From Methylococcaceae bacterium (GTDB lineage Bacteria; Pseudomonadota; Gammaproteobacteria; Methylococcales; Methylomonadaceae): a DNA stretch of 42,212 nt. The stretch is from positions 1 to 42,212 of the forward strand of contig JABFRC010000324.1 in NCBI GenBank assembly GCA_013141375.1, written 5' to 3'. Both the position numbers and the translations under genes were made by a program. The notes below the pieces were generated by a model. That model saw only the letters and a program-made list of their open reading frames with translations. It was not told the DNA's origin and searched no databases. Of this stretch, positions 6,125-21,524 are shown piece by piece; the first letter of the stretch is position 1; the number at the start of each line of letters is the position of its first letter.

Positions 6125-6385
6125 TCATTTTTTGTAATGGTATCTGCAACTGATAATAATCAATCGATCGTTTTCAACTTTGTAAACCAAGCGATGCTCA
6201 TCATCAATGCGTCGTGACCAGTAGCCTTGTAGTTCATATTTTAAGGCTTCCGGCTTGCCCAATCCCTGATAAGGACTGCGGCCAATATCTTTAATTAGAC
6301 TAACAATACGCTTGTAAGCTTTTTTATCATCTATCGCCCATTGATTAAAATCATCAAACGCACTGGGCTCAAAGCTGATAATCAT
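6125..6385 (-). CDS. yoeB: YoeB/Txe-family mRNA interferase toxin
   Basis: The 86-residue protein closely follows the YoeB pattern: IKDIGRSPYQGLGKPEALKY (which includes the catalytic Glu), then GYWSRRI, DEHRLVY and the C-terminal CRYHYK. These correspond to the Glu, Arg, His and terminal Tyr of the ribosome-dependent RNase active site, and all are present, so the toxin looks functional. Members of this family cut mRNA in the ribosomal A site. The ATG overlaps the antitoxin stop by 4 bp (ATGA, 6382-6385). The pair lies between pyrG and kdsA on the same strand. Confidence 0.93.
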   Translation of the reverse strand: MIISFEPSAFDDFNQWAIDDKKAYKRIVSLIKDIGRSPYQGLGKPEALKYELQGYWSRRIDDEHRLVYKVENDRLIIISCRYHYKK

Positions 6386-6630: not shown

Positions 6631-8732
<2,102 letters not shown>

Positions 8733-8766
8733 TGAAAAAAAACAGCCATCAGAGTTGATGGCTGTT
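8733..8766 (-). terminator. Rho-independent terminator of the oxidase locus
   Basis: A perfect 11-bp stem (AACAGCCATCA at 8741-8751, complement at 8756-8766) with a 4-nt loop is followed on the minus strand by a run of seven T residues. It starts 12 bp after the stop of the PsiF-like gene and closes the accessory locus read from the right. Confidence 0.9.
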
Positions 8767-8778
8767 GTTTCATGATTA

Positions 8779-9003
8779 TTATCGTGGTGTTGTTTTAACG
8801 CAGTTTGCTACGAAAGCACTACGATCGTTACCGGACAGTTGTTTCTGGTCAGCTTGCTGCTTGCAGGATCTGAATACAGAATCCTTTGATTTATGCGGGT
8901 TCTCAGTCGTTTGGTTTGGCTCTTCTGTTGGTTGGTTTTGAGCTTGCGCACAACTGATTACGCCAGCAATGAGTGCAATAATTAAAATTGATTGTTTAAA
9001 CAT
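8779..9003 (-). CDS. Small secreted PsiF-like protein
   Basis: The start is ATG at 9003, chosen because GGAG sits 9-12 bases upstream; the frame also extends to 9063 without ribosome-binding support. The 74-residue product opens with a Sec signal (residues 1-21, ending in CAQA). A polar linker rich in Gln, Thr and Asn follows, then a C-terminal SVFRSCKQQADQKQ...SAFVANCVK segment. Two cysteines flank a basic helix there, as in the PsiF repeat (C..QA..KKL.G..R..F...C). PsiF proteins are secreted and of unknown biochemical function. It is the last gene before the terminator, 45 bp behind the cytochrome gene, so it probably belongs to the same transcript. Confidence 0.75.
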   Translation of the reverse strand: MFKQSILIIALIAGVISCAQAQNQPTEEPNQTTENPHKSKDSVFRSCKQQADQKQLSGNDRSAFVANCVKTTPR

Positions 9004-9047
9004 GGTATTAACTCCGATAGATGTAAGTAAAAATAATTTCATATACG

Positions 9048-10877
9048 TTAGGGCACTATCCATTTGGCACCACTTTCAGCGATATTCATATCGCTGACTA
9101 AAGGTCGAACATAGGCACCTTTTGAAGCAAATCGCTGACCGATACCCAGACTGATACGAGGATAAGCCGTTGTACCAGTCCGCTTCATCAAGAAATCCAT
9201 ATCTACCTTATGTGCTGTTGGCTTGGACTTTGATGAATTATTAACAGGCTGTGGTCCGTGTCCACCACCACCCATCATCATCGACTGAACTTCTTCCTGA
9301 ACCTGCATGGCTTCACGCATTGATAGTGTTGCTTCGGCACGCTCAATTAAATAATCAGTGTGCAAGTTGTTTAACATTGAGGACAGCATCCACGAAAATG
9401 AATTCACCGCAAAATAGACCTCCGACTGCATTTTTTCATCAAGCAAGGTTAATTGCCGATATCTGATCCAGTCATTAAATCGCGTTAGATTTGCCGAACG
9501 CATTTTCGGCAACTCAGAACGTTGGATCAGCCAGGCGTTTTTGCTCCAGTCAACTGACCATGCCGGCATCTTTTCACCTGCCAGCGTCGAAGATACATAG
9601 ACTGCTGACAACGGTGCGGCAAGACCAGTTAAAGAGTTATTCAGTTCATTATCTTTTAACCATAACAGCACTGCATCTTCAGGCTTTAAGCTTTTAAGTA
9701 AGGTTGCCGTTGAATCCGCTGCTGATTGATTTAACACAATGTCCTGAATGTCTGCACCGGACTTGGCAAGATGCCTACGCACTGTTGAAGCCGCTTTTTG
9801 TGCGAGTGCTGACTCACCTATTAACTGCACAATCTTGCCGGGTTTTTTCGAAGTGGATAAAAGCTGTTTACTGATAACGTCCGCCTCTAACTGAATGCCC
9901 GCAGAAAAATAAAGACTGTATTTGCCTTTATTCGCTTCTTCAGGCACTAGATCGACGCTCGGGAACCAGCAAGCCACTTTTTGGATTTCACAAAAATCCT
10001 GCACCGGTTGCCATTCACTTTCTGACAGCCCTGATAGCACCGCAAAAACCGGCTTTTCTTGCTGCCGCTTTTCCAGTTGCTCCGCCCATGTGGAACTAGG
10101 TCCATTGAGTTCCCAGACATCAAGTGCCCATGTACGCCGGCTATGTAAACGTTTCTCAATGGGTGTGATTCTATGTTTTCCTGCCGTTGCAACATTGACA
10201 TTATGCTGATTCAGTATTGCATTTAAGGTATCTACAAACACCTTGCGTCGTTCGGGACTTACATCAGGCGTAATCACTGTGGCCAGATGTATTTCCTTTT
10301 CTGCAGCGCCGGGTGACCAAGTTTTCGACAAGGTTTTCAAGTACGCCGACACCGCACGTAACTCCTCATCTGTGAGCTCATAGCGCGGCATCAATGCACT
10401 TAATTTCCGTCCCGATACATGTTGCCCCAAACGCACCGCCGACCTGAATGATTTGTCATCATAAGGTTTGGGCGGGGTAGATAAACTCTTATTAAACAGT
10501 CTATCCACCTCAACAATCACCGGGTTGCCACCTCCGAATATCGCGCGACCTGAAATGGGGGGAATGGCTTCATTACCTTCCACGCCACCCAGACCACTGC
10601 GAAGATGACACTGAACACATGCGGCCTGTTGGCCTCTTAGCTTGATGCCACCCTCACGATCTGCAACGATAGGTCGACCATTTGACGATTTGCCTTCCAG
10701 ATACAGCTGACGACCCTGGAGCTCCAGAGCAGTCAGTGTCTCTGATGGGATCCCTCCCGCGACTGGCGCGGAAGGGTTGGCAATAGCCTTGGTTTCTCCT
10801 GGGTTGGAGGGCTCAGCGCCGACCACGAGGGTCTGCGCGCCGAGCAAAGCCAATACTATGAGTTTAAAGGGACTCAT
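9048..10877 (-). CDS. Secreted cytochrome c fused to a periplasmic-binding-like domain
   Basis: A 609-residue protein with a Sec signal (about 1-21, ending in VVGA). A mono-heme class-I cytochrome c domain follows at about 50-190: heme site CVQCH at C87/C90/H91, likely axial Met in SALMPRYELTDEEL (M163), and a closing YLKTL helix. From about 195 to 530 it has alternating beta/alpha segments resembling type-1 periplasmic binding proteins of the branched-chain amino-acid ABC family. The tail includes a Met/Gly/His-rich patch (SMMMGGGGHGP, about 532-542) that could bind copper. Its ATG lies 1 bp after the giant oxidase stop, so translation is almost certainly coupled. I infer that it accepts electrons from, or loads metal for, the oxidase. 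Confidence 0.82.
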   Translation of the reverse strand: MSPFKLIVLALLGAQTLVVGAEPSNPGETKAIANPSAPVAGGIPSETLTALELQGRQLYLEGKSSNGRPIVADREGGIKLRGQQAACVQCHLRSGLGGVEGNEAIPPISGRAIFGGGNPVIVEVDRLFNKSLSTPPKPYDDKSFRSAVRLGQHVSGRKLSALMPRYELTDEELRAVSAYLKTLSKTWSPGAAEKEIHLATVITPDVSPERRKVFVDTLNAILNQHNVNVATAGKHRITPIEKRLHSRRTWALDVWELNGPSSTWAEQLEKRQQEKPVFAVLSGLSESEWQPVQDFCEIQKVACWFPSVDLVPEEANKGKYSLYFSAGIQLEADVISKQLLSTSKKPGKIVQLIGESALAQKAASTVRRHLAKSGADIQDIVLNQSAADSTATLLKSLKPEDAVLLWLKDNELNNSLTGLAAPLSAVYVSSTLAGEKMPAWSVDWSKNAWLIQRSELPKMRSANLTRFNDWIRYRQLTLLDEKMQSEVYFAVNSFSWMLSSMLNNLHTDYLIERAEATLSMREAMQVQEEVQSMMMGGGGHGPQPVNNSSKSKPTAHKVDMDFLMKRTGTTAYPRISLGIGQRFASKGAYVRPLVSDMNIAESGAKWIVP

Positions 10878-10878
10878 A

Positions 10879-13800
10879 TTAAGGGACCAATACCAAGGTT
10901 GGAGTGACTACGCCAGTGGTTGGGTTAACTGTACCCACTGTTGCAAAGGTCGATACACCCGCCGCGTTTGTTGCCTGTACGCGGATGTAGAACGATGTAC
11001 CCGTTGTCAAACCACTGAGTGCGTAGTTAACAGGATTTCCTGTGTTGGCACCCGGCACCACTGTTGATACCAAACCTCTGGTGAACGTGGCATTGGTTGC
11101 ACGTTGCACGGTAAAGCCGGTTTCGTTAGTAGCGTTATCAGTCCAGCTCAGGTTGATTACACCAGGAACCCCTAAAGTGGTTGTTGCTGTCAGCGCTGTT
11201 GGAGCCGCTGGAACCGTTAAGTCAACCACATTGGAAAGTACTGGCGTTGATGACGGTGGTAATGCTGGTGCAACAACACCGGTAGCATTGATTGCCGTTA
11301 CCCGGTACTGATACGTACCTGAAACTACCGGTGCCACCAGGTTATTAATATAACTCACTGCTGTATTAACACTGGTTGAATTGGCAGCCGTGCGGGCAAC
11401 CGTAGCTAGCGTTGTCCAAACCGGAGGTGTAGCACCTGCAACCGTCGGAGTGATCAGACGTTCAATCACAAAGCCGGTTTCGTTGCTTGACAAGTCAGTC
11501 CAGGTCAAGGTGATGCGAGTTGCGTTAGTGATCACAGCAGTCGGTGCACCTGGGTTCGCAATGGCAGCCCCCGTTATTGTTACCGGTGTTGTTGATACTG
11601 CGGCTGAAGCAGCTGCTCCACTCACTGATGCGACTGTGTAGCTATAGGTTACGCCAGGTAACGCAGTCGTATCGATGTAAGTTCTAAGCGTACCGACAGC
11701 TGTTTTTTGAGTAGCCGTGCTGGTTACCGCATAGAACGTCGGTGCACCTGTTGCCAGACCAGTTGCCTGATCGATAATCACCCGTGAAATCTGGAAGCCG
11801 GTTTCATTGTTAGACGTATCAGTCCAGCCAACTTGAATGCCGGTTGCAACTGAAGTAGCAGTTGCCGCTGTGGGCGCACTCAAGGTCAGGCCAGCAGTGA
11901 TACTTGCCGACAGATTACCTGTTGGAGTGACTGCCGATACCGTGTATGTATAGGTTTTGCCAACAACTGCGGTAGCATCAGTGTAAGTGCCTTTAGCCCC
12001 CGTGCCCTTAATAATCGAATATCTGGTATTTACAACTACCGGTAATGCTGGGTTGGTGTTATCGGTACGCGTGATGGAATATGCAGTTTCAGCTGCAGTG
12101 TTATCGATCCAGCTTAATACTATGGACGTACCCGTCGAAGTCACTGCAGTGAGCGCAGTTGGTGCACCGGTAATAGCGGTTGCTGCTCCACTATGAGCTT
12201 CGTTAGAAGGTAAAGAGAACGTTAAGCCGCCAGTCGCCGGAGCAATGGGTGTATTGGCCGCAACAACTTGATAGCTGTAAACCTGACCTACTGGTAATAA
12301 AGCCGTGTTGGCGGTTGCATCAGAATAAGAGGCTGCGCCGATGGCTGTACGTTGAGTGGCCGAACGATTAACTATCGCTATAGTGGTGTAAACCGTTCCT
12401 GCTGGAACTAAACCCGTAGTGGGATCAAGTGTTACTACTGCACGATTGATATGGTAAGCCGTTTCAAACGTGGAATTATCAATCCAGTTCAACACTACGC
12501 CAGTCGCTGGAGCTACTGGTAATGCAGTCGTCAAGCCCGTTGGAGCAGGTATGATCACTGTGGCATTCACCGGTGCGGTGTAAGCCGAATAGCCAGGAAC
12601 TGCAACTGCAGGAGCCACTACTACCGGAGTCACCACCGCACGGACAGTGTAGGTGTAAGGCGTGCCGACAGCAGCAGTGACATCGCTATAAGTGACTGCG
12701 GCGTTAATAGAGGTGCGTTGCGCGGCAGTTCTTGCGACGGTGAACACTGCTGGAGGCGTTAAGCTAGTGGTATCGGTACGCACGACTTCAAACGCTGTCT
12801 CATTTGCCGACATATCCGTCCAGCTCAAAGTCACGTTGGCACCTGCTTGTACTGCAGTCAATGCAGTCGGTGCAACAATAGACAAGGTAACATTGGCTTG
12901 GTTGGATGGAGACGACATCGACACAGTGGCTAATGCAGGAGCAACAGCGGCCACTGTTCTCACAGCGCGGACCTGATAGATATAGCTTTGTCCAGCCGCC
13001 GCGGTCGTATCAGTAAATGTGACCAGACCGGTAGTGGCAGTGCTTAACGCAGTAGAGCGTGCCACCGTACCTACAGCAGCAAATACTGGTGCTGCACCCG
13101 GAGTTGCAATTGCACGTTCAACCTGGAACGAAGTTTCGTTAGTTGATGCATCCGTCCAGCTTAAGCTGACACCCACCCCTGTTGGGCTGGCGGCTGTCAA
13201 GCCCGTTGGCGCTGTTACTGCTACCGCACCAGTCACTTGGCTAGATGTGGCAATCGGGCCCAGTATTGTTCCACCTGCAGCATCGATCGTAAGCGCTCTG
13301 ACGCGATAAACGTAACTTGCGCCCGTTGCCAGGGTGCTATCGGTATAGGTCAGGGTGCCTGCAGGCAGAGTAGTGCTTAAAGATACCCAGTTAGCAGTAG
13401 CCAATAGACATTGTGCGCTAGTACCTGCACAACGCTCGACTCGGTAAGCGGTTTCTCCAGTGGACGTATCAGCCCAGGTCAACAGGGCTTGAGTGACGCC
13501 ATTCACGACACTGGATATTGGTGCAGCCAAAGTTGGCGCCAACAATTCAGCCGGTGTCAGCGCGCTGACAGCTGCAGTGAACTGGGTATTGAAGTTAGCT
13601 TTTGTGGCGCTAACGCGGAACTGGTACTGCGTGGCAGGCGTCAGGCCAGTTACTGCATACGTCACCAGACCACCGGCCACACTTGCAGGTGCAGTGCCTT
13701 GTGGTAACCAGGTGACACCGTCAGTACTGAATTCAACCGCAAATCCGGCTTCATTGCTGGCATTGTCGGTCCAGGTCAGTGTTAGCGTTCTGGCGGTAAT

Positions 13801-16800
13801 TGCCGGAACCGTGCTGACAGCCAGACCTGTTACCGCTGCCGGTGCTTGCGCCAACGTGACAACGCTGGATGAATTGCTCAAGGCACCGTTATCAGCAACT
13901 ACTCGGTAGTCATAATCAGTGTTAGCAGCAATGGTCGCATCTTGAGCAGTCAGGATGTTGGCAGCGACTGTTGCAACCGTTGTCCAGCCAGTGGCTGCAG
14001 TCACAGCAGTGCCAGGCGCAGCACGCAACACGCGGAAGCCGGTTTCGTTGGTTGAGGATTCAGTCCAGCTAATGGTTGCAGTAGTGCCAGTGACAGTGAC
14101 CGGAGCAACTACAGGTGCTACCGGTGCCTGATTTACGGTAAGGGCATTCGCAAGGGTGATATCGCTATCGCCTTTGCTGTTAACGGCAATCACTCTGTAA
14201 GAGTAATCAGCATTTAATGGCGCGGTAGTGTCCTTGAAAGTCAAGGTATTGGCAGCAACAAGTGTAGTGCCGACTTGCGCGTAAGTACCAATCACGCCAT
14301 TGGTGATCATGGCGCGCTCAACACGGAAACCGGTTTCATTGCTGGACTTGTCTTGCCAGGTCAAGTCAATTGCTCCAGTAGTCACTGTTGACAGCACAGC
14401 AGATGAAAGAACTGGTGCAGCGGGTAGCTGGATCAAACTGAGAGCATTTGACGCGTTACCGGAAAGCGCACCGTTGACAGCAACTACGCGGTATGAGTAA
14501 TCGCTATTTGGTAATGCTGTTGCATCCTGGAACGTTGTGATGTTGGCTGCTGTCAAGTTTCCAACTGGCGCATAGGCTCCAATAACACCATGTAACACAT
14601 CAGCGCGTTCAACGCGGAAATTAGTTTCGTTACTGGAATTATCAGTCCATGTCAGGTCAACTGCCCCTGCTGTTGTCGTTGAGATTGCAACGGTAGACAG
14701 CGATGGTGCTTTTGGTGGTTGCGTAAGCAGTAAGGTGCCTGAAACTGCGCTGTCACCTTTGCTGTTGGTTGCAAAAACCCGATAGTCGTAATCCAGATTA
14801 GGATCTTTCGTGGTGGTATCTTGTGCCGTGGTTACATTTTTACTTGCTACAGTGGCTGCTGTCGTCCAGGTATTGGCACCCGCCGGGCTGCGTTCTACCC
14901 GGAAACCTGTTTCGTTGGTGGCGTTGTCAGTCCAGTTGATATCAACAGCAGTTGGCGTAACTGTTGAGGCAGCTACTGTGTTTATTGTCGGTGCAGCAGG
15001 TGTCTGTACAAACTCCGTAAACGTGGCTGATGGTGTTTCACCTGCTTGGGTCACAGCAACCACGCGAAAGGCCAGGTTCGTATTTGGTTTTGCTGTTGCA
15101 AGACCTGCAAAATCAGTTTCAAAGCTCTCTTTGTTGGCAATGACGTTGATTTTGCCTGGTTGATCGAGTTTTAGAGTGGCAAAATCGGGGATTTTGACAA
15201 ATGACTCCGTTGTTAACGATGTCGCATTGGCATAGGCTTGCGGCACGCCATCAATGGTGGGTGCATATTCAACCCGGAAGCCGATTTCATTGGCCGGGTT
15301 GCCGGATTTGGTAGGGTTACCATTTGCATCAGTACCAGGAATGAATGCACTGCCAGAAACAGGTGTAGCATCCGTCCAGGTGACCTTGCCATTGACCTCA
15401 TCCAGGGCAACGCCTGTTGGCGCACTAGGTGCTACTACAGGAATTGGCTTGAAGATCATCGGACGCATCAGGTCGTTTTCTTCATGACCCAGAATATGGC
15501 AATGGAACACATATTCCCAGCCATAGTTCTGGATGTCGTTGATGACGGCTGGTTTTGTCACAGGCAGGTTAGTGACGGGATCGATAGCAGGCAAACCTGT
15601 GTTTGGATCGAGTACCGCTATACCAGGGATGGCTTGACCCGTCAGAAGATCGTATTGCAGGAAGGCTTCAGGGATAACGGAGCCTGGAGCTGCTGCGCTA
15701 TAGTTCATTGAAGTATTGGTGTCATCGTTAGGATTTAAGGTTGGATCCTTCAGACGTACGCTGTCCGGTAAACCAAATGGTAGAGCCGGGGTGATTGGCT
15801 TGAGCGCAACAATCACGTCCTGGAACGGCCAGTTTTGTACCGTTTCCTTCCAGCCCGCTTCATCCGGCGTCGGATTGACTAATGTGTTTGTAGCATCATG
15901 GTTAACCCGCGCAAGGACTTGCACGTTATATAAATGGAAGTGGATAGGATGGTTATCGGCATCGTTGTTTCTGATATGCCAGTACTGAACTTTTCCTTCC
16001 TCAACTATTTCGGTAGCTTGGTCGATGTAGCCGATAGGCGTTTCTTTGCCAGCAATGGTCAACACTTTATTCGTACCAAAGTTAGCGATCAATCGACCAA
16101 AATTAACGTCTTCGCCGCCTTCGATACTTTTATACTGTATATCTAACCCTGTGTGAGCGGTCATCCAGTCATTTAACGTCACTGGAATAGGTTGGCCGGC
16201 AACATCGGTTAATGGGTTGCCTGTGGCTGGGTCAATTTTTACTGTGGGTTTGCCATCGTAAACAACACCACTTTCGATGTGAGCATCCGCTTTGGCTGCG
16301 TAAGCCGCAGGCAATACGGTTGCCAGTGGGCCACCATTACCGGCTGGATCATAGGCCGGGTCAGCTGCAGAGGCAGCGACCTTGATTTGCATGATGGTGC
16401 GCGTATTTGGGCCATAGCCTGGCAAGGTCGTTGGCGCGCCACCTGCAGACGTACGATCCGGGTTGCCGGTGAAATAATCGTAATTCGGGTCGCCGGTTGG
16501 GATAGGGGCAACCGAATCATTGTACATAATCAGTGTTTTTCCGGCGTATTGCGAGAAATCGATCACGGTGTCGCCACGTTCGGCGTTGCCCAGATAGAAG
16601 CCGCCACTGACTTCATCACCCAGGACATTATTCACCAGGTCATAGGCGAAGTTGATGGCCTTTGGTGCGCGTATCACGGGGTGTGGCAGCAGACCGGTTT
16701 CATTGCCAAACTGAATGATGGCAGGGCCGGCTGTCGCTGGATCAGGAATGCCGCCTACGCGTCCTGCCACAGTAGTAAGCGTAACAGTAGCGCCAGTGCC

Positions 16801-18666
16801 GGTGGGGTCGGTAATTTGTACTTGTGGATTGGAATAACCGGAACCGACATTGGTCAGGGTAACGCTGGTAATCGCGCCCGTGGCATCGAAAGTTGCAGTT
16901 GCTGTTGCGCCGCTGCCATAGCCTGGTTTTGTACTCGGGCTGATCGGGGCATCAATGATGGTAACAACTGGATTGCTATAACCTGCACCGCCGCCATTGA
17001 CCGGTATGGTAAAGCCGTTTGGCAGGACTTCCGGCACCATTTTGACTTCAGTATTGGTTCTGCCATCGCTGCTGGTCACCGAGCCATCGGCTTCCCATAG
17101 TGAAAGATTGAAATAACGGTCGTTGGCACCGTTGAGAAAGCGCACACGATAGGCTTTCGGATCGACAGTATAAGTAGGATAGGCCACGCCATTGACCATT
17201 GCAGTATCCATATAGGCTTCAGGTGACGTAGAAACACTGCCGTAATCACCCGTTGGTAGTGGTAAAAGCGGTTGCACGAAGGTAGTGCCCGCTCCTGCTA
17301 CCGTTGGGCCATAATCCCAGCGCCCTGCAGGGTTATCGATTAACAGGGCACTATTGGTTGGACTTTTAATAACAGCCGGTTCGTAGACATGCGGGAACCA
17401 CAGGTCACCAGGTTTGCCCCAGTGGCCTTGATCCCATTTTGCATCCTGGGTTGCGATATCATTGGGTACAAAGGTTTTATCCTGGATCACCAAGGGTAAC
17501 ATGGGCATGGTTGACGGAATCGCAGCAGCAAGTGCAGCATCTTCAGCCGGATCAACCACAAGGTAAGCCGTAGCCATGCCCACATAAGCGTTTTGACGAG
17601 TCAGGCCGAAGGTGTGATCGTGGTACCACATCAAACGCGCTGTTTGATCATTGGGCCAGTAGATGGTTTGCGCCGCTTCACCTGGATCGGGCATGTCGGG
17701 TACGTTAAAAGCCCGATCGCCGCGTTTGAGTATCGGGTCTAGCAATGGATCTGTTTCTGCAGAAAACCATTGGTGTGGCGTACCGTCACTGATCCAGGGT
17801 GAGTCGCCGCCATGTAAATGGATGGCAACGCGGTTTTGTGGAAAGGTACTGCCGATAATGGGCGAGTTACCAGCGCCAGGTAGGTTTTCGTCCACCGGCA
17901 GGAACATATCGCCTTTGTGTTGCAGGATGCCATTACCATCTAAACCCGCTCTGCCTTTGGGTAGCAGGTTGTTCATTTTGATACGTGTTGCGACGCCTCT
18001 GGTGGCGATAATCGCGGCTCCCAGGTAATGCGGTTTGTCAAAAGCGATGGCTGCGACCATAACCGGTTTGCCATCAATGCCTTTAACTATGGTGTGATCC
18101 CATTTATTGGTAAGGGCGTCAAAACCTTTTTCTTTGGCAACATAAATTTGTGAGCCGTCAGGGTATTTCAGTGAGTATGGATGACTGGATAGGGTATCAG
18201 CTGCCTGGGCATTGGTTGTCGCACGATCAATCTGCACATAGCCACGCAGCGTGGTGGGTTTGATCAAATCTCTGTGCATCTTCTCGGTGTATTCCACCAC
18301 GGCTATTTCGTAATAATCCGAGCCGGGATAGGAGGCGCTGTCCTTGGTGGTGACTGAGATGTATTGACCTAAGTTGTTAGCGTTAGCGGGTGTCAAGCCG
18401 GGTAAGGTATCCACGAACTTTCTAAGTTGCGGGCTGTTGGCGTAGTAAGTGGGGATTTGCACTAAGGCGCCACCAGGGGGGCAAGTGGGCGCCGACGGCA
18501 CAGTAAAGTCGACGGCTGAGCCATCGTCACAGGCAGGCACAGCGCCAGGACCTGCTTCGGCTAAATGATTGGTTGATAAGCTGCCCAGCGCAACTAACAC
18601 GGCAATCGACAGTCGTTTAAGTTGCAGTGTTGCAGGGCTTTGGTTAGTTGTGGCGTTCGGTTTCAT
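10879..18666 (-). CDS. Giant secreted multicopper oxidase with C-terminal fibronectin-III repeats
   Basis: A 2595-residue protein. The Sec signal spans about residues 1-39 (LSIAVLVALGSL core, cleavage after AEA). The multicopper oxidase region is about 40-1075, and all four copper motifs are intact: HLHG (283-286), HDH (349-351), HPIHFH (906-911) and HCHILGHEEND (1055-1065). The residue at Cys+10, the type-1 copper axial position, is Leu1066, not Met. A Gly-rich GSGY-type repeat insert sits at about 555-635. From about 1080 to the end there are about 14 fibronectin-III modules, each with the core W.D.S.NET.(F/Y).(V/I).R; these look like stalk or adhesion modules. Ordinary laccases have about 500 residues; very large bacterial members include the Leptothrix MofA manganese oxidase. 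The RBS AAGGA lies 7-11 bases before the ATG. Oxidation of Mn(II), Fe(II) or phenols is an inference; the substrate is unknown. Confidence 0.93.
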   Translation of the reverse strand: MKPNATTNQSPATLQLKRLSIAVLVALGSLSTNHLAEAGPGAVPACDDGSAVDFTVPSAPTCPPGGALVQIPTYYANSPQLRKFVDTLPGLTPANANNLGQYISVTTKDSASYPGSDYYEIAVVEYTEKMHRDLIKPTTLRGYVQIDRATTNAQAADTLSSHPYSLKYPDGSQIYVAKEKGFDALTNKWDHTIVKGIDGKPVMVAAIAFDKPHYLGAAIIATRGVATRIKMNNLLPKGRAGLDGNGILQHKGDMFLPVDENLPGAGNSPIIGSTFPQNRVAIHLHGGDSPWISDGTPHQWFSAETDPLLDPILKRGDRAFNVPDMPDPGEAAQTIYWPNDQTARLMWYHDHTFGLTRQNAYVGMATAYLVVDPAEDAALAAAIPSTMPMLPLVIQDKTFVPNDIATQDAKWDQGHWGKPGDLWFPHVYEPAVIKSPTNSALLIDNPAGRWDYGPTVAGAGTTFVQPLLPLPTGDYGSVSTSPEAYMDTAMVNGVAYPTYTVDPKAYRVRFLNGANDRYFNLSLWEADGSVTSSDGRTNTEVKMVPEVLPNGFTIPVNGGGAGYSNPVVTIIDAPISPSTKPGYGSGATATATFDATGAITSVTLTNVGSGYSNPQVQITDPTGTGATVTLTTVAGRVGGIPDPATAGPAIIQFGNETGLLPHPVIRAPKAINFAYDLVNNVLGDEVSGGFYLGNAERGDTVIDFSQYAGKTLIMYNDSVAPIPTGDPNYDYFTGNPDRTSAGGAPTTLPGYGPNTRTIMQIKVAASAADPAYDPAGNGGPLATVLPAAYAAKADAHIESGVVYDGKPTVKIDPATGNPLTDVAGQPIPVTLNDWMTAHTGLDIQYKSIEGGEDVNFGRLIANFGTNKVLTIAGKETPIGYIDQATEIVEEGKVQYWHIRNNDADNHPIHFHLYNVQVLARVNHDATNTLVNPTPDEAGWKETVQNWPFQDVIVALKPITPALPFGLPDSVRLKDPTLNPNDDTNTSMNYSAAAPGSVIPEAFLQYDLLTGQAIPGIAVLDPNTGLPAIDPVTNLPVTKPAVINDIQNYGWEYVFHCHILGHEENDLMRPMIFKPIPVVAPSAPTGVALDEVNGKVTWTDATPVSGSAFIPGTDANGNPTKSGNPANEIGFRVEYAPTIDGVPQAYANATSLTTESFVKIPDFATLKLDQPGKINVIANKESFETDFAGLATAKPNTNLAFRVVAVTQAGETPSATFTEFVQTPAAPTINTVAASTVTPTAVDINWTDNATNETGFRVERSPAGANTWTTAATVASKNVTTAQDTTTKDPNLDYDYRVFATNSKGDSAVSGTLLLTQPPKAPSLSTVAISTTTAGAVDLTWTDNSSNETNFRVERADVLHGVIGAYAPVGNLTAANITTFQDATALPNSDYSYRVVAVNGALSGNASNALSLIQLPAAPVLSSAVLSTVTTGAIDLTWQDKSSNETGFRVERAMITNGVIGTYAQVGTTLVAANTLTFKDTTAPLNADYSYRVIAVNSKGDSDITLANALTVNQAPVAPVVAPVTVTGTTATISWTESSTNETGFRVLRAAPGTAVTAATGWTTVATVAANILTAQDATIAANTDYDYRVVADNGALSNSSSVVTLAQAPAAVTGLAVSTVPAITARTLTLTWTDNASNEAGFAVEFSTDGVTWLPQGTAPASVAGGLVTYAVTGLTPATQYQFRVSATKANFNTQFTAAVSALTPAELLAPTLAAPISSVVNGVTQALLTWADTSTGETAYRVERCAGTSAQCLLATANWVSLSTTLPAGTLTYTDSTLATGASYVYRVRALTIDAAGGTILGPIATSSQVTGAVAVTAPTGLTAASPTGVGVSLSWTDASTNETSFQVERAIATPGAAPVFAAVGTVARSTALSTATTGLVTFTDTTAAAGQSYIYQVRAVRTVAAVAPALATVSMSSPSNQANVTLSIVAPTALTAVQAGANVTLSWTDMSANETAFEVVRTDTTSLTPPAVFTVARTAAQRTSINAAVTYSDVTAAVGTPYTYTVRAVVTPVVVAPAVAVPGYSAYTAPVNATVIIPAPTGLTTALPVAPATGVVLNWIDNSTFETAYHINRAVVTLDPTTGLVPAGTVYTTIAIVNRSATQRTAIGAASYSDATANTALLPVGQVYSYQVVAANTPIAPATGGLTFSLPSNEAHSGAATAITGAPTALTAVTSTGTSIVLSWIDNTAAETAYSITRTDNTNPALPVVVNTRYSIIKGTGAKGTYTDATAVVGKTYTYTVSAVTPTGNLSASITAGLTLSAPTAATATSVATGIQVGWTDTSNNETGFQISRVIIDQATGLATGAPTFYAVTSTATQKTAVGTLRTYIDTTALPGVTYSYTVASVSGAAASAAVSTTPVTITGAAIANPGAPTAVITNATRITLTWTDLSSNETGFVIERLITPTVAGATPPVWTTLATVARTAANSTSVNTAVSYINNLVAPVVSGTYQYRVTAINATGVVAPALPPSSTPVLSNVVDLTVPAAPTALTATTTLGVPGVINLSWTDNATNETGFTVQRATNATFTRGLVSTVVPGANTGNPVNYALSGLTTGTSFYIRVQATNAAGVSTFATVGTVNPTTGVVTPTLVLVP

Positions 18667-18876
18667 AAAATATCCTTCGTTGAAGTCATTATTGATGATT
18701 GTGTTGCTGGTTGGGGTTGAGCAATGCTGTCAGCTGGGCAGGCTTGGGTTAATTCAGACCCTGGGATGCAGTTGCTTAGGCGATGGTGTCTTGCAGGGAA
18801 TTTCATTTATTTTGTGATCCTCTTTGCACTTTTTTAGGTTGTGCAAATTATCCCAACCAGAAACCACTATCGAAAA
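18667..18876 (-). promoter_or_regulatory. Leader and likely promoter region of the giant oxidase
   Basis: About 210 bp lie between the dyad array and the oxidase ATG. It holds no gene. A ribosome binding site (AAGGA) precedes the start. I looked for a -24/-12 sigma-54 element and found none with correct spacing, and no clear sigma-70 boxes, so the promoter is placed here by position only. Confidence 0.4.
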
Positions 18877-19004
18877 GGGTGATATGTCCCGCATTTTTTG
18901 GGTGATATGTCCCAATTTTTTTAGGTGATATGTCCCGATAAAATCGGGTCATATGTCCTGCAGATTCGGGACAATTGTCCCGAGAGGTTCGGGACAATTG
19001 TCCC
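18877..19004. promoter_or_regulatory. Six-copy operator-like array, 23-bp period, upstream of the oxidase
   Basis: Six 14-bp sites start at 18877, 18900, 18923, 18946, 18968 and 18991, with periods 23, 23, 23, 22 and 23. The last two are perfect palindromes, GGGACAATTGTCCC. The first four are GGGTGATATGTCCC or close variants, keeping the TGTCCC half in every copy (TGTCCT in the fourth). Such regular spacing, about two helical turns, places all sites on one DNA face and suggests cooperative binding of a dimeric regulator. The array lies 211-338 bp upstream of the oxidase ATG. The same motif recurs at 19814-19850. Confidence 0.8.
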
Positions 19005-19331
19005 GGCATCAAATGCAAATATTTCTGTCATTTATTTGAAAAAATAAAATGCACGTCGAATGAGTCAATTGCATTTTTGATAAAAAAACTGGGGGCTTAG
19101 TCGTAGGTAAATCTGTAGTAATTGCAAGGCATGACGAGGCTTAGGCGGTTCTATCGGTCATTGTCTGGCGATATTTATAAAGCCTGAAGTGGTTCGATAG
19201 TAGGATTTTTTTATTCGAAAAGTTATGCGTTTTTAATGATTTTAGAGCGAGTGTTTAGCAAGCAATGGGGCTGGATGTGGTGAATTTTTTTGCAAATTGA
19301 ATGTCGGTATTTTTTTTGTAACTTTCTGTTT
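19005..19331. other. AT-rich gap between the oxidase array and the PilZ gene
   Basis: A 327-bp AT-rich stretch with no coding frame that I can support on either strand. It holds several T-runs and would serve as the 3' flank of the PilZ gene and the distal upstream region of the oxidase. I see no clear terminator hairpin after the PilZ stop, so read-through into the oxidase is possible. Confidence 0.5.
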
Positions 19332-19751
19332 TTATAGGGTTTTGTAACATAGCTCATAATTACATGAGACTTCGCGTGGCGGGCAGTTTATAAAGCCGCA
19401 GTGCTGTAAATTACTAATCTGAAGATCTGGTAGTGCCAGTAAGCGGGTATGGCTAAATCTCACAGCTACGCCAACTGATTTATATAGTGGCATTTCAGTA
19501 CGCACAACTTGGCCTAGGGCTGCAAACCCTGCGCTTGTTTTTAATCGGGTAAAGATAAAGACTTGGCTATGTAAATCTAGTGGCTGAGGTAGGCGCATCA
19601 ACAAGCCGCCAGGGCTTATGTTGTCGGCCAAAGCGATTAATTTGAAGCGTTGTCCGCGGTTATTGATACTGCGAACAAAAACTTGGTAGGTTATGTGGCT
19701 GCGGCATTCTGCGCGGCGACAATGAAGTGTGGGCTGGTGTGAGGTGTTCAT
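19332..19751 (-). CDS. PilZ-domain protein (likely c-di-GMP receptor)
   Basis: A 139-residue soluble protein made almost entirely of one PilZ domain. Both c-di-GMP-binding motifs are present: RxxxR as R13-AEC-R17 and [D/N]xSxxG as N44-I-S46-PG-G49. The following strands (HSQVFIFTRL, AALGQVVRTE, SVGVAVRF) fit the beta barrel. The C-terminal 30 residues contain three cysteines and fall outside the domain. It lies between the response regulator and the giant oxidase on the same strand. Two copies of the array motif sit 63-99 bp upstream of its start, so it is likely controlled with the oxidase. Confidence 0.85.
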   Translation of the reverse strand: MNTSHQPTLHCRRAECRSHITYQVFVRSINNRGQRFKLIALADNISPGGLLMRLPQPLDLHSQVFIFTRLKTSAGFAALGQVVRTEMPLYKSVGVAVRFSHTRLLALPDLQISNLQHCGFINCPPREVSCNYELCYKTL

Positions 19752-19813
19752 TACATCAATAGGCCTAAAGATTTAGTGCAATTGATGGTTACATGGAGCG
19801 GAAGCTGATAATA

Positions 19814-19850
19814 GGGACAATTATCCCGTTTCAAACGGGACAATTGTCCC
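19814..19850. promoter_or_regulatory. Two-copy operator-like array upstream of the PilZ gene
   Basis: GGGACAATTATCCC at 19814-19827 and GGGACAATTGTCCC at 19837-19850 are again 23 bp apart, matching the array upstream of the oxidase. Together with the spacer they also form a near-perfect 18-bp inverted repeat about C19832. In RNA this could fold as a hairpin just after the response-regulator stop (19855), so it may double as a terminator. It lies 63-99 bp before the PilZ ATG. Confidence 0.75.
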
Positions 19851-19854
19851 GGAT

Positions 19855-20535
19855 TTACAGTTTGGAATTGTTGTTGTCCAGGCCAAATTGATCGGCTTTT
19901 AAGCACAATTCAACTTGGCTGACGACGCCTAATTTTTCGTAAATAATCGAAAGTTGGTTGCGAACTGTCTTTTCGCTGATGCTAAGCTTTTTGCCCATGA
20001 CTTTTGCAGAGAGGCCTTGGCAAGCTAAACGGGCGATACTGGATTCTCTTTCGGTGAGGTTTTTACCAAAGCCGTTACCATTGTTATTTAGTTGCTGTTC
20101 TGCGGATTGCCAGAGCAACTTCGTTAACTGGCGATCAAACCATTCATGACCGGCATGAACTGAATGGATGGCTTTAAGCAATAAAGCCCCATTTTGGTCC
20201 TTGGCGATAATTCCCGCTGCTCCGGATCTTAGAACTTGAAGATGGGTGTTTAACTCGTTATCGTTGGAAAAAATCAGTATTTTAATCAACGGGCAGGCTT
20301 CAGTAAGCTTGGGAATTAGCTCACTTAACTCGTTATTTGAGAGGATGAGGTCTAGCAGAAGTACGTCCGGCTTAAGGCTGTCGACTAAGGGATGGACGTC
20401 TTCTAGGCTATCAGATTCGGCGACTATTTCGATTAGGGGCTCATATTCAATCAATGACCGCAAGCCAATGCGGATGATTTCGTGGCTTTCAACAATCAAT
20501 ATCCGTATGTTTTGGTTAAATAACGCTCTGGACAT
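19855..20535 (-). CDS. NarL/LuxR-type response regulator
   Basis: A 226-residue two-domain regulator. Receiver domain at about 10-125: phospho-acceptor D62, S90 and K112 are in place, but the usual acidic pair is E16-S17, so one Mg ligand is lost and phosphorylation may be weak or atypical. A linker with Asn/Gln-rich sequence (148-158) leads to a LuxR helix-turn-helix at about 159-215 (LTERESSIARLACQGLSAK, then SEKTVRNQLSIIYEKLGV). No sensor kinase lies beside it in the window. It is the first gene of the PilZ-oxidase locus and the obvious candidate to bind the 23-bp-period arrays; that is an inference from position. Confidence 0.9.
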   Translation of the reverse strand: MSRALFNQNIRILIVESHEIIRIGLRSLIEYEPLIEIVAESDSLEDVHPLVDSLKPDVLLLDLILSNNELSELIPKLTEACPLIKILIFSNDNELNTHLQVLRSGAAGIIAKDQNGALLLKAIHSVHAGHEWFDRQLTKLLWQSAEQQLNNNGNGFGKNLTERESSIARLACQGLSAKVMGKKLSISEKTVRNQLSIIYEKLGVVSQVELCLKADQFGLDNNNSKL

Positions 20536-20858
20536 TGTTTTTTATGCATCCTTCCTATGCGATCCGTTAAATACGGAGTTTATTTTATTAAGCTTATAGT
20601 CATTAGGGTAACAAAATTTCGTTACTACTCAAAACTAATCGGGAAATGATTTTGGTTGTAGATGCTCTTGTTTAACGCTAGATATTATCGTCAAGTTTTT
20701 GACGCAGATCAAAAAAAATAATTTGCCACGGCAAAACACATTGTCAAAATATGTTGATTTTAAAAGTACATGTTTTGTGTTCTAGCACGTTGAATATTTG
20801 AGTTGGAACAAAAATACGTTTGCTTACAAGAATGCGACTGTGGGGGTTAATATCAAGC
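20536..20858. other. AT-rich region upstream of the response regulator
   Basis: This stretch of about 320 bp has no gene. Its one recognisable element is an FNR/CRP-type dyad at 20699-20712, listed separately. The promoter of the response regulator should lie here. Confidence 0.45.
20699..20712. promoter_or_regulatory. FNR/ANR-like box upstream of the response regulator
   Basis: TTGACGCAGATCAA matches the FNR consensus TTGAT-N4-ATCAA at 9 of 10 fixed positions. It lies about 165 bp upstream of the regulator ATG, which would allow oxygen-linked control. One such match in an AT-rich 320-bp region can occur by chance. Confidence 0.35.
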
Positions 20859-20911: not shown

Positions 20912-21292
20912 TTAAGCTGCTTGAACAGCGATAGACGAAGCCGTATGTGAGACTTTGTTTTGTTCGGTAAAGTAAATCAAAGTGGGTTTATGTGCTTTTG
21001 CTTCTTCTGCATTCAAAATGGCATAAGCACAAACAATGATCAAATCACCGGGGCAGGCCAGTCGCGCGGCAGCGCCGTTGACCGAAAATACACCGGAACC
21101 GTCTTCTGCCCGGATGGCATAGGTTGTAAAACGCTCACCATTGTTGATGTTGTAAATCTGTATTTGCTCATATTCCCTAATGCCCGACAGATCTAAAATG
21201 GTGCCATCAATCGCACAAGAACCTTCGTAACCCAGTTCCGAACGGGTCACTGTCGCTCTATGTAATTTAGCTTTAAGCATCGTAACTTGCAT
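20912..21292 (-). CDS. panD: Aspartate 1-decarboxylase
   Basis: PanD decarboxylates aspartate to beta-alanine for pantothenate and CoA. It is made as a pro-enzyme that cleaves itself to form a pyruvoyl group. The start at 21292 gives 126 residues and places the self-cleavage site at Gly24-Ser25 (GYEGSCAID), the E. coli numbering, so I prefer it to the TTG at 21319, which would add nine residues. Other signatures are [24 protein letters not shown] and the NGAAARL...GD stretch. The C-terminus ([11 protein letters not shown]) is ordinary. The gene stands alone and is divergent from the MaoC-like gene at 21525. Confidence 0.96.
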
Positions 21293-21524
21293 AATAGGAA
21301 CGCTGTTTACCTTTAACAAAAAGACCGTCCATTATCCATTATTTGCATCAGACCTTCAACAATTGCCAAGTCAAAATCTGTTTTGAAAAAACGTGTTCAT
21401 CCTCTTGCGGCAACTTGCGATGATGGTTTTAGTCTTTTTTAGATGAATAATGCCAATGCAGGTTTTACAAAATGCTACATTAACAAACGCCAATTTGACC
21501 TATTAAGAAATCGAGGGAGTTTAG

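Follow-up and report, generated by a model that had tools for sequence, protein, structure and literature searches.

A response regulator, PilZ and operator cassette beside an OmpB/MofA-type multicopper oxidase operon in a Methylococcaceae genome

The window analysed here, a 42,212-nucleotide stretch of contig JABFRC010000324.1 from a Methylococcaceae bacterium (assembly GCA_013141375.1), carries on its minus strand five open reading frames (ORFs) that encode, in order, a response regulator, a PilZ protein, a multicopper oxidase (MCO), a cytochrome/binding protein and a PsiF-like protein. The preliminary description of this DNA placed the five genes between positions 8733 and 20535, and all of the ORFs are confirmed there, as is the strong terminator reported at their end, an intrinsic terminator on the minus strand (8741–8766) with an 11-bp stem (8766–8741) and a T tail. 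The genes were also taken to form a single signalling-to-oxidation system. The analysis below argues that the locus probably consists of two joined modules: a regulatory cassette, which would drive matrix genes elsewhere and the oxidase here, and an oxidase operon of the OmpB/MofA-MofC type. Comparisons were made with 237 genomes of the family (one per species), 301 of the order and a 350-genome draw from the class; G-, L- and C-numbers denote genomes, loci and contigs, respectively. The host is called a methanotroph by its family label only.

The response regulator (19855–20535, minus strand) contains a Response_reg receiver and a GerE helix-turn-helix (HTH) domain, the two features of the NarL/FixJ family, and represents an orphan NarL/LiaR-type factor of a distinct subfamily. 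Its HTH reads SEKTVRNQL, and the recognition helix SEKTVRN is strongly conserved across the subfamily. A sigma-70-like promoter match (TTGACA-18-AATTAT, 10/12, a consensus match only) lies upstream of the gene at 20718–20747 on the minus strand. Phospho-signalling, as proposed in the preliminary description, would correspond to classical two-component control, in which a sensor kinase encoded elsewhere phosphorylates the regulator, with no more than an incidental role for cyclic di-GMP (c-di-GMP) and PilZ. In keeping with such control, the window protein retains the acceptor Asp62 as well as Lys112, and the nearest solved folds are those of the phosphorylated regulators LiaR/VraR, RcsB and NarL. 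The acidic pair, however, is degenerate in the window (E16-S17) and broken in seven of the 12 subfamily members, the acceptor is replaced by Asn or Glu in four, and only two members retain both the pair and the Asp acceptor; moreover, no kinase was found in the part of the window examined or in the neighbours examined. Judged from these residues, phospho-signalling through the regulator appears doubtful, and two-component control is rather unlikely.

A further explanation is direct sensing of the VpsT kind, with c-di-GMP binding to the regulator itself at a motif around Trp132 and PilZ acting on export. Trp132 is invariant in all 12 members, as W-x-x-R/K/H/N (WFDR in the window), a long helix (residues 135–151) is predicted behind the receiver, and the erosion of the phosphorylation site fits as well. 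The c-di-GMP motif in the receiver of VpsT-type proteins is W[FLM][TS]R. By contrast, the third motif residue is Asp, Asn or Ser across the present subfamily, and the window sequence departs from the VpsT motif; VpsT-type membership was rejected. In the fold comparison VpsT comes no higher than 30th, and in sequence it falls far behind NarL/LiaR, which makes direct sensing by the regulator quite improbable.

The PilZ protein (19332–19751, minus strand) is 139 residues long, and a PilZ domain (E 7e-6) is the only domain found. Both signatures of c-di-GMP-binding PilZ proteins, RxxxR and (D/N)xSxxG, are intact, as R13xxxR17 and N44xSxGG, and residues R13, R17, N44, S46 and G49 are invariant in all seven members of the PilZ subfamily. 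Since these motifs are kept throughout and the phosphorylation site of the regulator is eroded, c-di-GMP is rated above phosphorylation as the probable conserved input of the cassette.

The two genes are accompanied by a palindromic operator, GGGACAATTGTCCC, which occurs in three exact copies and one copy with a single mismatch, arranged as two pairs. One pair precedes pilZ and comprises a perfect dyad just past the stop codon of the regulator gene (19837–19850) and, 23 bp from it, the copy with one mismatch (19814–19827). The other pair lies upstream of the oxidase, where two perfect dyads (18968–18981 and 18991–19004) are again 23 bp apart. Four asymmetric copies (18877–18959), which read RGGACATATnACC on the minus strand, follow on the oxidase side of these dyads in steps of 22–23 bp, so that the array before the oxidase holds six copies, including the two perfect 14-bp palindromes, within the 665-bp region preceding the MCO start. 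In the 3.9-Mb genome, the four copies in the window are the only ones with at most one mismatch; at two mismatches there are seven further places, against five for the reversed control. The occurrence of the operator at this locus is far beyond chance. The preliminary description had ascribed one operator to all of the genes, which holds for pilZ and the oxidase. No operator of 9/12 or better was found upstream of the response regulator gene, and the cytochrome/binding and PsiF-like genes have no operator of their own and lie behind the MCO gene in the same operon. A sigma-54 promoter was searched for by eye before the MCO gene and rejected on account of its spacing.

The oxidase (10879–18666, minus strand) is a giant secreted OmpB/MofA-like MCO of 2595 residues with Cu-oxidase_2 and fn3 matches and about 14 repeat-like FN3 motifs. 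All four copper-ligand motifs are present, namely HLHG at 283, WYHDH at 347, HPIHFH at 906 and HCHILGHEENDLM at 1055, the last with the pattern HCHxxxHExxDLM. The N-terminus resembles a signal peptide by eye only, and the nearest solved structure is CotA. Set against the ligand positions of CotA, the axial type 1 position would be Leu. Three orthologues with complete ends are 1153–2214 residues long, and L031 is cut at 1625; the FN3 tail varies greatly in length among the window and L031–L034, the window having the longest, and the catalytic part is still alignable.

The MofC-like cytochrome/binding protein (9048–10877, minus strand) starts with an ATG one base past the MCO stop codon, a spacing kept in L031–L033 and replaced by an overlap in L034. 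It carries a Cytochrom_C match (E 1.6e-4) with a CVQCH haem c site (C87-C90-H91) and a predicted type-I periplasmic-binding-protein fold. The structural model is modest (mean predicted local distance difference test score, pLDDT, 61.6; 10 sequences); its best Foldseek matches, which include leucine/isoleucine/valine (LIV)-binding proteins and the amino-terminal domains of N-methyl-D-aspartate (NMDA) receptors, all have type-I periplasmic-binding folds and suggest the same fold here. The PsiF-like small secreted protein (8779–9003, minus strand) has an in-frame ATG at 9003, although its ORF is also open from 9063, and the assignment is weak (NCBIfam PsiF, E 2.9e-4, 21 bits against a cut-off of 165).

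Regulator and PilZ recur together in other genomes of the family. At E<=1e-50, a profile search with the regulator retrieved 12 genes, from 11 of the 237 family genomes, and no others; a search at 1e-30 and the profile at 1e-50 returned the identical 12 genes. The PilZ profile is present in seven of the 301 order genomes and, in the class draw, in the own genome only. PilZ and the regulator are no more than about 0.7 kb apart in six of the seven genomes, the exception being G212, where PilZ is on a separate contig. The link to biofilm or surface life suggested in the preliminary description receives support from the neighbours of this subfamily and its operator, among which are adhesin, PEP-CTERM and polysaccharide genes. 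DUF4347/RTX giants adjoin the cassette in L094 and L099, and FxDxF PEP-CTERM proteins in L100 and L101 (Pfam, NCBIfam). L096 has a collagen-like adhesin (NCBIfam match below the curated cut-off), L092 and L093 have weak PEP-CTERM-type neighbours, also below cut-off, and L091 has an XrtA-type glycosyltransferase, again with a match below cut-off. None of the targets tested was found in L095, L097, L098 and L102. The layout of the window is repeated in L101, with one operator before pilZ and a second before a secreted target.

Conservation of the operator was assessed with all 4096 six-base half-sites in a 6+2+6 dyad around the 12 other regulator/PilZ loci, the window being excluded. At 11/12 or better, GGGACA is the first of all half-sites (four of the 12 loci), followed by its transition variant GGGATA and by TTTTTT with three loci each. 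At 10/12 or better, the GGGACA dyad is found at seven of the 12 loci and at one of 12 control stretches. Exact GGGAYAWWTRTCCC occurs at 10 sites in six of the 11 regulator-positive genomes (reversed-pattern control, 0) and at six sites in five of 45 regulator-negative genomes (reversed control, 6). With the own genome left out, five of 10 positive and five of 45 negative genomes have the site (Fisher p 0.012). Nine of the 10 sites in the regulator-positive genomes have a regulator or PilZ gene at most 2 kb away, and the tenth is inside an ORF. Sites distant from regulator and PilZ in G074, G051, G108, G126 and G245 are inside ORFs, as are, by coordinates, those in G032 and G215.

The half-sites also appear to be phased. 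The spacing of same-strand RGGAYA pairs was examined in 16 stretches drawn by hand (5283 bases from 12 loci). All pairs no more than 70 bp apart have distances of 21–24 bp (10 pairs), 33 bp (two), 44–47 bp (three) and 56 bp (two), close to multiples of 11 bp. The 10 pairs at 21–24 bp compare with 0.71 expected by random placement, and none of 20000 trials reached 10; the degeneracy of RGGAYA and the stretches were, however, picked after inspection of the operators. When whole neighbourhoods are used as a stricter control, GGGAYA leads the G/C-rich hexamers (four loci).

Several observations on the operator weigh against the reading of two joined modules. At 10/12, AT-rich half-sites outrank GGGACA. 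The best operator reaches only 8–9/12 in L092, L093 and L098 (three of the 12 loci outside the window), and in L100 and L102 the highest score of any dyad up to 1.5 kb from the regulator is 9/12. In the whole-neighbourhood control, CCAAYT and two AT-rich hexamers equal GGGAYA, with four loci each in this tie. The exact operator is not enriched across the 237 family genomes (eight sites, reversed control 8); on this ground, and because the distant sites named above lie inside ORFs, a global operator regulon was rejected. Binding of the regulator to the operator is itself proposed from their co-location only. Given the post hoc choice of hexamer and this tie, the dyad is taken as the stronger evidence and the phasing as supportive.

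Two observations concern the operator sequence in particular genomes. In L096 (4139–4152), L097 (8884–8897) and L099 (7966–7979) the palindrome falls inside the final codons of the regulator gene, and these regulators thus end in translated operator (e.g., ...RDKCPD...). In G114, GGGACATATGTCCC hairpins flanked by A/T runs (L114, 7478–7491 and 8337–8350; L113, 7646–7659) precede small secreted proteins. The two long-hairpin sites of this genome were not accepted as cassette operators, on account of the A/T runs and of a genome without regulator, and are kept in the family-wide and GGGAYAWWTRTCCC counts; the hairpins are possibly another element.

The oxidase genes have a different distribution. 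At E<=1e-10, 40 of the 301 order genomes have a homologue of the cytochrome/binding protein. At E<=1e-50 there are 49 rows, from which eight weaker ones (G002, G249, G251, G186, G203, G117, the second of G129, and G159) were left out. In a tree of 41 of the homologues, the window groups with L031–L034 (support 1.0), and all five members of this clade have oxidase, cytochrome and PsiF-like genes. Neither FKBP, SCO1, regulator nor PilZ was seen in the DNA covered by L031–L034, and the window likewise has no FKBP or SCO1; for L031, which begins within the MCO, absence of the cassette comes from the genome-wide searches only. Other oxidase clusters mostly include FKBP and/or SCO1. At the thresholds used, regulator and PilZ are absent genome-wide from all four genomes with close oxidase orthologues (G173, G237, G233 and G110). 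Among the 40 oxidase-family loci retrieved, no operator scores 11/12 or higher. The own genome holds a second mof-type set, with the oxidase at L070 (C193) and FKBP, cytochrome/binding protein and SCO1 at L040 (C227), and no operator of 11/12 or better was found there. G212 combines an oxidase cluster, regulators and PilZ in one genome, on different contigs. Relatives with the oxidase pair and never with the regulator, PilZ or arrays nearby were the finding that the preliminary description had named as contrary to its proposal, and with such orthologues a single five-gene system is rejected. The link between cassette and oxidase therefore rests on one genome, which also counts against the two-module reading.

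The two modules could then be unrelated neighbours, the cassette controlling pilZ only (once perhaps also a matrix gene since lost) and the oxidase being there incidentally, its array a relic. Besides the oxidase orthologues without cassette, the degeneracy of the four proximal array copies is in keeping with this, as is the setting. The flanking genes panD (20912–21319) and pyrG (6631–8295) lie on the same strand as the block, so that colinearity alone carries little information. In the same-genus genomes G051 and G256 pyrG adjoins a tilS-like gene (named by eye), and in G277 a different ORF followed by the contig end; in none of the three is any of the five block genes beside pyrG. The block therefore occupies a breakpoint that lies between panD and pyrG, at which it may have arrived in one step or in several. 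On the other hand, a six-copy array with two perfect 14-bp palindromes stands in the 665 bp before the oxidase start, unused perfect palindromes would not be expected to persist, and L101 has the same layout. An incidental association is consequently unlikely, and the joined modules remain the preferred reading.

The oxidase and cytochrome/binding pair is, judged by its published layout, of an already described kind, whose oxidases are suspected of acting on manganese or iron. In the available text of PMC5566968, the OmpB/MofA-MofC layout (mofABC of Leptothrix discophora, OmpB of Geobacter) is a secreted FN3 MCO beside a protein with haem c and a periplasmic-binding domain, and the cluster of OmpB itself is without MofB; PMC8218464 reports a mof operon that includes a gene for a metallochaperone. 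The window matches in the secreted FN3 MCO with four copper motifs and in the adjacent haem c and periplasmic-binding protein, the binding fold coming from the model of modest pLDDT. The FKBP (MofB-like) and SCO1 genes of paralogous loci, including L040, are variable in the family, and the five-member clade of the window differs in lacking them and in adding the PsiF-like gene; within the clade, the cassette is found in the window only.

The statement in the preliminary description that no such system has been described thus fails for the oxidase pair and may hold for the cassette. Regulator, PilZ and operator form a separate conserved cassette, apparently undescribed within the open-licence literature searched. 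A parallel in architecture, MrkH-MrkI of Klebsiella type 3 fimbriae, likewise encodes a PilZ protein together with a FixJ/LuxR-type regulator and controls a surface structure (PMC3161979); MrkH is itself a DNA-binding activator, whereas the window PilZ is short and single-domain, and targets and operator differ. VpsT and CsgD share the NarL/FixJ architecture and matrix targets (VpsT: available text of PMC3359988). In Pseudomonas resinovorans, c-di-GMP ties biofilm to Mn(II) oxidation, which is blocked when a PilZ protein is overexpressed; the oxidases there are Mop haem peroxidases, and the available text describes no operator cassette like that of the window (PMC9765421). The new part is the cassette, and with it the one known case in which it is associated with an operon of the metal-oxidase type.

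In the joined locus, the upstream module would consist of the orphan NarL-type factor, the single-domain PilZ and arrays of GGGAYA half-sites every 22–23 bp, a repeat that would span two DNA turns and keep the sites on one face. The regulator would be expressed from its own promoter and occupy the perfect dyads first; further molecules would then spread over the asymmetric copies in the direction of the promoter, with activation of pilZ and the oxidase operon as the presumed outcome. PilZ with c-di-GMP may signal the surface or biofilm state to the regulator or to the export of the product, and the operators before pilZ would provide a feedback loop. The product would be a matrix-bound oxidase that transfers electrons to O2 at its trinuclear copper site, possibly via the cytochrome; its likely substrate is Mn(II), Fe(II) or a phenolic matrix component.

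More tentatively, a portable c-di-GMP-linked cassette of pseudo-receiver regulator, PilZ and phased arrays might move among the matrix targets of the family and, here, put a metal oxidase under matrix control; metal-oxide deposition would in that case become part of biofilm building. Surface-matrix control is little described for this family in the literature searched, and the locus supplies an operator of defined sequence, a regulator that may bind it and several matrix targets, all of which are testable. For OmpB/MofA-type oxidases, of which both function and regulation are unsettled (PMC5566968), it provides a genetic entry point and suggests that at least one of them is expressed as a matrix component.

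An Rfam scan of the window gave zero matches. A YoeB-like toxin ORF (named by eye) lies between kdsA and pyrG at 6125–6385; it is missing from L148 and occurs also in the same-genus locus L150.

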